Below, in pieces: positions 17,050-38,105 of a stretch of DNA of 64,000 nucleotides. Every line of letters starts with the position of its first letter. The stretch's first letter is position 1. Made by a program: the position numbers and the translations under genes. The DNA is taken from the NCBI GenBank assembly GCA_014360825.1, contig JACIWT010000001.1, positions 186,001-250,000 of the forward strand, given 5' to 3'. The notes beneath the pieces were generated by a model, which was given only the letters and a program-made list of their open reading frames with translations, searched no databases and was not told where the DNA came from. This DNA comes from Chloroflexota bacterium. Lineage in GTDB: Bacteria > Chloroflexota > Anaerolineae > UBA2200 > JACIWT01.

Positions 17050-17078
17050 TTGACAAATCGAACATTTGTTCGTATAAT
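17050..17078 (+). promoter_or_regulatory. Consensus sigma-70 promoter with embedded LexA (SOS) box
   Basis: Perfect TTGACA (17050-17055), exactly 17 nt, perfect TATAAT (17073-17078). The spacer holds CGAACATTTGTTCG (17059-17072), a 6-bp inverted repeat with a 2-bp centre. It matches the CGAAC-N4-GTTCG box recognised by Gram-positive-type LexA. LexA bound here would shut the promoter completely. Confidence 0.82.
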
Positions 17079-17109
17079 GAGCTGGCGATAGGTCATATTT
17101 GGAGATCCG

Positions 17110-18264
17110 GTGGAAACAGAAGTGGATATCTTCCAAAAAGCCGAAGCCTTAGGCCGGGCAGCCCAATACGATCTTTGCGGCGAAGCGTGTGGTACCGCTG
17201 CAGCGCGAGTTCGCGACAACCTTGGCCGTTGGATATATCCCGTCGCGCTGCCCGATGGCACGCGGGTTATGCTTCTCAAAGTCCTTTTCACCAATGCCTG
17301 CGATAACGACTGCCGATACTGTGCTAACCGTGCTGGGCGTGATACTCCCCGTTTCACTTTCGAATGCGAGGAACTGGCACGGCTCTTCGACCAACTCTGG
17401 CGATCTAAACGGGTGACAGGTCTTTTCCTCAGCTCAGCCGTACGTAGGGGCGGGACACAGACAATGGAGCGCATGATCACCACAGTGGAGATACTGCGCA
17501 ATAGGTACCAGTTTCGTGGTTACATCCATTTGAAAATCCTGCCCGGGGCTGAGAAAGCATGCGTGGAGCGAGCAGTGCAATTGGCCACCCGCGTTTCGCT
17601 GAACTTAGAAGCGCCTAACTCGACGCGTCTGGCCCACCTGAGCGGCGCGAAAGATTTTGAGAATGATCTACTCATCCCTATGCGCTGGGTTCACGAATTT
17701 CGTCAGCGCGGTCTGGGTGCACCGGCAGGCCAAACCACCCAGTTCGTCGTTGGGGCGGCGGGCGAATCTGACCGTGAGATCCTGACCACTACGGATCGCC
17801 TTTACCGTGAAGTAGAGTTGCGACGGGCATATTTCAGTGCTTTCCAGCCTATCCCGGACACCCCACTCGAGAATCAGGCCGCTACATCGTTGTTGCGCGA
17901 ACACCGCCTTTATCAGTCCGATTACCTGCGACGCCTCTACGGTTTCGAGTTTGATGAATTGATATATGATGAGAATGGTAACTTGCTCCAGAGCGAAGAC
18001 CCCAAGATGGCCTGGGCACACCACAACCCTCAGAGGTTCCCCATTGAGATCAATCGCGCCAGCCGAGAGGAATTGCTTCGCATACCGGGTATTGGGCCAC
18101 GCTCAGCGCGCCGGATCATTCATCTGCGCAAGGAAGCAAAGTTCCGCTATTTGGAAGATCTGACAAAGATCGGCATCCTGGCGAATCGAGCAGCCCCATT
18201 CATCTTGTTGGACGGGAGGCGTCCTCCCTACCAGATGCATCTCTGGGACCCGTTGTCCCTGTAA
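17110..18264 (+). CDS. Radical SAM protein with C-terminal HhH, putative DNA modification/repair family
   Basis: A 384-residue protein. The radical SAM cluster motif is CDNDCRYC (C-x3-C-x2-C) near residue 62, and the partial TIM barrel runs to about residue 280. A ComEA-like helix-hairpin-helix domain follows (about 315-375; INRASREELLRIPGIGPRSARRII), which normally binds DNA backbone. This combination matches the family named putative DNA modification/repair radical SAM protein (rSAM_link_UDG), often encoded beside a uracil-DNA-glycosylase-like partner; no such partner is in this window. It starts at GTG with GGAG six bases upstream. The SOS-type promoter independently supports a DNA-damage role. 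The chemical reaction is unknown. Confidence 0.85.
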   Translation: METEVDIFQKAEALGRAAQYDLCGEACGTAAARVRDNLGRWIYPVALPDGTRVMLLKVLFTNACDNDCRYCANRAGRDTPRFTFECEELARLFDQLWRSKRVTGLFLSSAVRRGGTQTMERMITTVEILRNRYQFRGYIHLKILPGAEKACVERAVQLATRVSLNLEAPNSTRLAHLSGAKDFENDLLIPMRWVHEFRQRGLGAPAGQTTQFVVGAAGESDREILTTTDRLYREVELRRAYFSAFQPIPDTPLENQAATSLLREHRLYQSDYLRRLYGFEFDELIYDENGNLLQSEDPKMAWAHHNPQRFPIEINRASREELLRIPGIGPRSARRIIHLRKEAKFRYLEDLTKIGILANRAAPFILLDGRRPPYQMHLWDPLSL

Positions 18265-36494: not shown

Positions 36495-36962
36495 TCAGAA
36501 TTCCTTGTAGACGATCTCTTCATACAAGGTCTCGACCTTGTTCTTGTGTTTCATCTCCTCGTTCGCCAACCAAGTAAAGAGGTTCCTGACCGCCTGATCT
36601 TGTGCGACCTCGCTCATAGCAGTGTAGAAATCATAGGCGTTCTTCTCGCGTTTCGCTGCTACTGTCAGCACGTCTTGGAAGTCTGCGTCTTCTCGCAGCG
36701 GCTGGGGCACCAAATAATCACTGATCTTAAGGTCGGTTACCTTCTCCTTGTGTCCACGTACTACCCAGGTGACACCCCTGGCGAGCAGGTCTTCGAGTTT
36801 GGCTTTGTGGGTTAGTTCCTCACCTGCTAATTCCTCTAACAGTACCCGTGACGGGGTGGATTTCACCATCTTCGCCGCTTGGGTATAAAGGGCGTTGGAT
36901 TCCTCCTCTCGCTTAATGGCAGTTCGCAGTAGTTCCTCTATGTTCCTGATATCCCCTTGCAT
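36495..36962 (-). CDS. Ferritin-like diiron protein (rubrerythrin-related)
   Basis: A 155-residue four-helix protein. Candidate metal ligands lie in IKREEESNALY, ELAGEELTHKAKL, AAKREKNAYDFY and LANEEMKHKNKVE, two E-x-x-H-type pairs as in rubrerythrin-like ferritins. The C-terminal rubredoxin domain of true rubrerythrin is missing. It may act as a peroxidase or in iron handling. It is within the oxygen-defence cluster, between rubredoxin and rubrerythrin, and AAAGGAGAAAGGCC precedes the ATG. Confidence 0.85.
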   Translation of the reverse strand: MQGDIRNIEELLRTAIKREEESNALYTQAAKMVKSTPSRVLLEELAGEELTHKAKLEDLLARGVTWVVRGHKEKVTDLKISDYLVPQPLREDADFQDVLTVAAKREKNAYDFYTAMSEVAQDQAVRNLFTWLANEEMKHKNKVETLYEEIVYKEF

Positions 36963-37077
36963 GTTGGCCTTTCTCCTTTCTTGTACAAAAGCGTTTTGGC
37001 GTCCGCCTCCGGGGCAGGCTGGAGCTTAGGTCTATAGCCCAGCCTACTAAAAGAACGCACTTTCACAACTCAGCCGC

Positions 37078-37584
37078 TTAGAAGCCGACGAATTTCTCCC
37101 TTCTTGCCTTGCAGATAGGGCATACCTCCGGTGCTTCGTCGCCCTCGGCAGTATGTCCGCAAACACTGCAGATCCAGATTTTTCCGATGGCGTGATCCTT
37201 ACCGCCCTGCACTGCCTTTTTTGCCTCGCTGTACCAGACAGCATGGATCTTCTCTGCCTCCCAGGCCCACCTGGTTGATCGTTCGGCCTCGCCTTCGCCT
37301 TGGAACTTGGCTATCTTGTTGAACACGGGGTACATTTCGTTGATTTCGTAAATCTCGCCGTCAACACCAGCCTGGAGATTATCAGTGGTGGTCTGAATGC
37401 CTCCCAAGGCGCGGTAATGGTTAGTGGCATGTACTTGTTCGGCATAGGCAATGGCGCGGAACATCCGGGCCACATTGGGCAGGCCTTCACGCTCGGCTTT
37501 GTCGGCGAAGATTAGGTAACGCATATGGGCTTGACTCTCACCGGCAAAAGCCTCCCTCAAATAATGCTCTGTCATTTGACGCAT
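37078..37584 (-). CDS. rbr: Rubrerythrin
   Basis: A 168-residue peroxide-reducing protein. The ferritin-like domain (REAFAGESQAHMRYLIFADKA; AYAEQVHATNHY; AERSTRWAWEAEKIHA) is followed by a C-terminal rubredoxin domain with ICSVCG and VCPICKA (two C-x2-C). Rubrerythrin reduces H2O2 with electrons from rubredoxin. The ATG at 37584 is spaced 9 nt from AGGAGG; an ATG 24 nt upstream would overlap that site. It lies 29 nt downstream of the Fur-family regulator gene and is probably co-transcribed with it. Confidence 0.95.
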   Translation of the reverse strand: MRQMTEHYLREAFAGESQAHMRYLIFADKAEREGLPNVARMFRAIAYAEQVHATNHYRALGGIQTTTDNLQAGVDGEIYEINEMYPVFNKIAKFQGEGEAERSTRWAWEAEKIHAVWYSEAKKAVQGGKDHAIGKIWICSVCGHTAEGDEAPEVCPICKARREKFVGF

Positions 37585-37613
37585 AGGTATGTTCCTCCTT
37601 TCAGCCAAAATGG

Positions 37614-38030
37614 TTATTTATTGTCGCTGGCCTTTTGCTCTGTCAACTGACAGGACGGACAAAGGCCGAGGAAAATGACATCGTGGTCATCAACTGTGAA
37701 ATCTGTATTTTGGGCTGCACGTGCTTCCAACCCGGTGAACCGGGCGCAATCTACATCACCGATGGCCCCACAGCGGTGGCAGACGACGTGGTAATGCTGC
37801 TCCGTACGAGCGTCATAGTGCGCTATGCTTGGATCACAGCGCAACTCACGGACCAGGCCCGCGTTGCATAATAGTCTCAGGTTGCGGTACACCGTGGCGA
37901 TGCTGATGCGAGGTAATGTGTGACGCACGTGCTCGAATATCCAATTGGCATCGGGATGGTTCTCCGTGCCTCGCAGCACATCCAAGATAGCACGGCGTTG
38001 AGAGGTCATACGGAGCTCGCCGCGCTGCAA
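37614..38030 (-). CDS. Fur/PerR-family metalloregulator
   Basis: A 138-residue regulator: winged helix with MTSQRRAILDVLRG and ISIATVYRNLRLL, the metal segment HYDARTEQHYHVVC, and two zinc C-x2-C pairs (CHRCG, CPSCQ). PerR-type peroxide sensing is suggested by the rubrerythrin neighbour, Fur-type iron sensing by the operator sequence; the residues seen do not decide. The TTG at 38030, with AAAGGA nine bases before, is the preferred start. The frame is open to 38105, but that stretch is the promoter and Fur box, so an ATG start there would fall upstream of the transcription start. Confidence 0.88.
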   Translation of the reverse strand: MQRGELRMTSQRRAILDVLRGTENHPDANWIFEHVRHTLPRISIATVYRNLRLLCNAGLVRELRCDPSIAHYDARTEQHYHVVCHRCGAIGDVDCARFTGLEARAAQNTDFTVDDHDVIFLGLCPSCQLTEQKASDNK

Positions 38031-38056
38031 TTTGTCTGATCCTTTGTCATTGAAAA

Positions 38057-38105
38057 TGATAATCATTATCATTCTTATGATAGCACAAGATGCGAAAAAT
38101 GTCAA
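38057..38105 (-). promoter_or_regulatory. Consensus promoter with a perfect Fur box over the start site
   Basis: Minus strand: TTGACA (38100-38105), a 17-nt spacer and TATCAT (38077-38082). Just downstream lies TGATAATCATTATCA on plus (38057-38071), an exact 7-1-7 Fur-family operator covering the predicted start of transcription. This fits autoregulation of the fur/perR gene and control of rubrerythrin and perhaps the rest of the block. Confidence 0.85.

Follow-up and report, generated by a model that had tools for sequence, protein, structure and literature searches.

Radical SAM proteins of the TIGR03916 family are present in most of the class Anaerolineae and in several phyla, yet the family is labelled only 'putative DNA modification/repair radical SAM protein'. 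A gene of this type lies in the 64-kb window (64,000 nt; the whole stretch of Chloroflexota DNA analysed here), and its promoter and protein raise the question of what controls such an enzyme and on what it acts. A sequence-only reading of the window had proposed an SOS-induced radical enzyme acting on DNA, perhaps by lesion reversal analogous to that of spore photoproduct lyase (SPL). Below, we examine the promoter, its conservation, the protein and its possible partners, and the reactions that are consistent with them.

Promoter and SOS box of the radical SAM gene

The features of the locus are collected in Table 1. The promoter, TTGACA-17-TATAAT at 17050-17078, matches the sigma-70 consensus at 12/12 positions, and CGAACATTTGTTCG abuts its -10 hexamer. 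It is the one perfect promoter in the window; three others match at 11/12, against 0.17 expected with at most one mismatch, and CGAACN4GTTCG occurs once, at this promoter, against 0.08 expected. The box-in-perfect-promoter layout is far beyond chance, and the earlier description of a LexA-type box inside the spacer of the window's sole perfect promoter was accurate as to sequence, with site and promoter counts above expectation. The coding sequence opens with GTG at 17110, GGAG lying 5 nt ahead, and is followed by an ECF sigma factor gene, a neighbour that is not conserved. Elsewhere in the window, an 11/12 promoter at 38077-38105 belongs to a minus-strand segment (36495-38105) with a gene for a Fur/PerR-type regulator and then rubrerythrin-like genes.

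Table 1. Coordinates of the promoter, gene and protein features in the 64-kb window
Feature	Position	Strand	Remarks
-35 hexamer TTGACA	17050..17055	+	sequence
LexA-type SOS box CGAACATTTGTTCG, entirely inside the 17-nt spacer	17059..17072	+	sequence; layout shared with lexA and orthologues
-10 hexamer TATAAT	17073..17078	+	sequence
GGAG, likely ribosome-binding site	17101..17104	+	sequence
Radical SAM and helix-hairpin-helix (HhH) gene, 384 aa, TIGR03916/COG4277-type, partner not adjacent	17110..18264	+	
CX3CX2C [4Fe-4S] motif, C64/C68/C71	17299..17322	+	invariant, 108/108 homologues
HhH domain (ComEA/HHH_3-like), residues 312-354	18043..18171	+	
C-terminal QMHLW, residues 375-379, near the QxxL[F/W] clamp-binding consensus	18232..18246	+	low-confidence, flexible end of the model

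The 2.89-Mb genome contains five CGAACN4GTTCG sites, two of which lie in a 17-nt TTGACN-TATAAT spacer, namely that of the radical SAM gene and that at C1:72626. The remaining three were rejected as SOS targets: they fall outside promoter spacers and look incidental. At C1:72626 (L009 3627-3640), a perfect copy of the box lies in a TTGACT-17-TATAAT promoter that has a GC-rich hairpin directly after its -10 and faces a family 2 glycosyltransferase gene about 160 nt downstream, an odd SOS target. One lexA gene scores above the family cut-off in this genome, and in its promoter, TTGACA-aattaGAACACTTGTGC-TATACT, the arrangement seen at the radical SAM gene is repeated with a degenerate box, GAACACTTGTGC. 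The requirement of the sequence-only reading that the host lexA carry this box in its own promoter is thereby answered, and all 36 genomes read are alike in this respect. No clear box was found upstream of the genome's own recA. A likely third target is the gene for an FtsK-like translocase, which has two AGAACAWWTGTTCT boxes, one of them within a 12/12 promoter, in its spacer; the E. coli ftsK gene (dinH) is SOS-regulated. The boxes of this FtsK/SpoIIIE-like gene are at C12:6730-6776 (L024 1501-1547), with xseA divergent. A looser scan for promoter plus box, in which 2 mismatches were allowed, gave as many matches as its reversed control and is not used as evidence.

Conservation of the box in Anaerolineae and Chloroflexota

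Orthologue promoters were compared in 46 class genomes, counted as unique genomes, and in 41 of them the orthologue has a near-consensus promoter with the box in its spacer, as the hypothesis of a conserved box had predicted. Four have no box (three from one family, and G010), and in G022 it is outside the spacer, further upstream. The lexA promoters were uniform, with the box in the spacer in 36/36 genomes read. When all 256 four-base palindromic half-sites were ranked, GAAC came first, with 75 of 107 non-redundant upstream regions (next best 26/107; median 4), in a set of loci where close relatives are over-represented because the loci were chosen by best match.

The expectation that lexA, recA and other repair genes would share the box held for lexA and mostly not for recA, of which only about 7 of the 23 genes read have a clear one, the host's own not among them; the regulon is therefore small. 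In most Anaerolineae read, recA has no clear box, whereas a box is retained at lexA and at the radical SAM gene (L147-L172). Two further observations concern the SOS genes of relatives. Tandem duplicate lexA genes occur in G048, G059, G024, G087 and G001 (L118, L123, L124, L129, L137), each copy with its own box-carrying promoter and the second copy more divergent in some genomes. Also, relatives carry an ImuA-like and ImuB-like polymerase cassette (L303; neighbours of L174 and L175), which in G017 has the box in a 12/12 promoter.

The Anaerolineae box shares its core palindrome and its promoter-overlapping position with the Gram-positive-type LexA box (GAAC-N4-GTTC), but differs from it in its constant place within the spacer, in promoters close to consensus. 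Dehalococcoidia differ from that type in another way, with GTAC-N4-GTTC-like variants (GTACNNNNGTTC-like).

Homologues and boxes in other phyla

Homologous loci were gathered with an alignment query, a single-sequence query having found none. Plasmid homologues are about 40% identical to the window protein (39-41% for paired members, described below). Upstream of the alphaproteobacterial homologues we observed GAAC-N7-GAAC in 9/9 copies, and upstream of the betaproteobacterial (Caballeronia) homologues a 20-bp CTGT-N8-ACAG box, TACTGTATAAAYATACAGTA, in 2/2 copies. The Pusillibacter operon is preceded by a GAAC-N4-GTTC box, GAACAAAAGTTC, and the Thermincola homologue has CGAACCTATGTTCG in its promoter. 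Homologues from Acinetobacter, Gemmatirosa, Subdoligranulum and Phocaeicola gave no match to the box patterns tried. The alphaproteobacterial, betaproteobacterial and Pusillibacter box types are established as the LexA boxes of their own groups. Judged by their sequences, the alphaproteobacterial and betaproteobacterial boxes are unrelated, the type switching to the putative local LexA box, and the presence of such different boxes ahead of one family argues that SOS control has been selected for repeatedly.

Family membership and the missing UDG-type partner

The window protein scores 332.7 bits against the NCBIfam model TIGR03916, just under the curated cut-off of 343.5; matches to this model occur in 227/298 class genomes and exceed the cut-off in 13/298. 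Pfam matches to Radical_SAM (PF04055) and HHH_3 (PF12836) bear out the earlier description of a radical SAM core joined to an HhH domain. Presumably, COG4277 is this same TIGR03916-type family. The window protein has its radical SAM core, HhH domain and invariant residues in common with TIGR03916/COG4277, and departs from it in the shorter C-terminus, the score, and the lack of a TIGR03915/UdgX partner.

In paired loci labelled as plasmid or phage for which gene tables were available, the next gene was always of the UdgX or TIGR03915 type. The sequence-only reading had anticipated a UDG-like partner elsewhere in the host genome. None was found there or in the whole phylum sample: the TIGR03915 profile, whose search controls were positive, matched in 0/150 class genomes and exceeded the cut-off in 0/301 phylum genomes, with six weak matches, all in one genus. 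Clustering of neighbours at 109 loci also gave no conserved operon partner, no cluster being present in more than 11 loci; the largest cluster was rejected as a candidate since it looks like a repeat family.

Solo and paired forms do not differ in their core residues. Across 108 homologues there is no variation at C64, C68, C71, H140, K142, S163, N165, E167, Q211, D221, R239, R263, R266 and D297-P298-K299, and these positions hold in paired members too. The Chloroflexota solo form suggests that the radical enzyme needs no UDG-type partner, and its substrate can therefore be sought with one purified protein.

These observations bear on the reaction. The enzyme may modify a base or nucleotide, yielding a mark or a processed lesion, with general base-excision enzymes then handling the product; the second step would in other phyla fall to the fused UdgX/TIGR03915 protein. 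The constant next gene of the paired loci and the common core argue for such a division of labour, but most Chloroflexota class genomes keep the radical SAM gene without that partner, and we regard base modification as plausible, if short of probable.

Protein fold and comparison with spore photoproduct lyase

The AlphaFold model has a pLDDT of 91.9 and a pTM of 0.89, with a flexible C-terminus. Among solved structures it is closest to HydE, biotin synthase and lipoyl synthase, at a TM of about 0.45, and we found none that covers the whole family. SPL was absent among the 50 best PDB structural matches, and no SPL model appeared among the NCBIfam or Pfam matches of the protein, so that the proposed analogy with SPL receives no specific support. 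SplB (COG1533) is SOS-regulated in several bacteria (PMC8565304), and it resembles the window protein in its radical SAM chemistry, its link to DNA damage and this regulation; the window protein differs in having an HhH domain and a clamp-type tail, and in its nearest folds (HydE/BioB/LipS).

Direct reversal of a lesion in the SPL manner would follow SOS induction: the radical would take a hydrogen from a crosslink or a damaged base, and the original bases would be restored. Such a self-contained step fits the SOS control, the HhH domain and the absence of a partner, and a cysteine in region 20-29, present in 86/108 homologues, could be the hydrogen donor. However, this N-terminal cysteine is missing in a divergent clade, and together with the family and fold comparisons this makes SPL-like reversal rather unlikely. 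An auxiliary cluster at C23/C27 was also considered, but the second of these cysteines is absent from paired members, and the idea was given up for that reason.

C-terminal clamp-type tail

The C-terminus of the protein carries a feature absent from the sequence-only reading. The homologues share a tail consensus, Q-[L/M]-x-[L/F]-[W/F] (QLxL[F/W]-type), with Q in 104/108 and W or F in 84/108. A strict form of the motif lies within the last 15 residues of 55/109 homologues and of 1/372 unrelated neighbours; a looser form was found in 100/109 homologues and in 7% of shuffled tails. Tails of the QL type occur in unpaired and paired members, the latter with QLSLF, QLALF and QLSLI, and DinB of the same genomes carries QLSLF, QLPLF and QLPLW. 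The window protein's own QMHLW is a less canonical version.

The sliding-clamp-binding consensus is QL[S/D]LF or QxxLF (PMC12309361), and the clamp-binding motif is often C-terminal (PMC4549789). A repair-type protein that has this short tail at its C-terminal end, or close to it, resembles the clamp clients PolC, DinB and transposases (QL[S/D]LF), and the QxxL[F/W]-type peptide of the window protein lies in a flexible terminus, as is expected of a clamp client. By this resemblance, it is quite probable that the tail docks the enzyme on the beta sliding clamp.

The tail also bears on the substrate. RNA is modified by many radical SAM enzymes and can be bound by HhH domains, so that the enzyme could act on tRNA or another RNA, with SOS control indirect to the main role. 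The clamp-type tail and, in other phyla, the UDG-type association point instead to DNA, and an RNA substrate is therefore disfavored, to the point of being very unlikely. From these sequence features, DNA may be taken as the substrate with good, though not full, confidence.

Proposed mechanism

The box in the lexA promoter, its class-wide conservation and the local LexA-type box in other phyla strongly support the SOS reading of the locus. They also leave hardly any room for some other repressor with a similar palindrome, even though the box was assigned to LexA by its sequence. LexA bound at the spacer box would almost certainly repress the gene, with damage relieving the repression.

SOS control as such is not new to the family: it has been reported for the COG1573-COG4277 pair in Bacteroidetes, UDG-type partner included (PMC8565304), and that paper cites SOS control of COG4277 in Verrucomicrobia and Alphaproteobacteria. 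In the literature searched, we found no mention of a solo Chloroflexota form or of the clamp tail, and no radical SAM clamp client. The partner-free Chloroflexota version and the near-invariant C-terminal tail look new.

We infer the following course of events. In the undamaged cell, LexA bound to CGAACATTTGTTCG, in the spacer that separates the -35 from the -10 hexamer, would block RNA polymerase; upon DNA damage LexA would be cleaved and the strong promoter would fire. The product would combine a radical SAM core of the BioB/HydE/LipS-like kind with an HhH domain that engages DNA and a flexible C-terminal QxxL[F/W] peptide that docks on the beta clamp, and this docking would bring the enzyme to replication sites that are stalled or gapped. 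There, 5'-deoxyadenosyl-radical chemistry may act on a damaged or mis-inserted nucleotide. The Chloroflexota enzyme would do so without the UDG-type partner used elsewhere, as a single-gene SOS effector. The locus as a whole is probably best explained by an SOS-induced radical SAM enzyme that acts on damaged DNA and is probably tethered to the clamp; as to the reaction, lesion reversal and base processing are both in play. More tentatively, and with considerable doubt on our part, this partner-free, clamp-delivered enzyme may alone reverse or process a replication-blocking lesion, an activity that would extend over many phyla and is so far undescribed.

If that were true, the family would supply the replication fork with a repair step based on radical chemistry. 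SOS control under differing LexA-type boxes, together with the conserved tail, would place these proteins among the replication-fork damage-response enzymes, and the solo form makes their long-open function directly testable.
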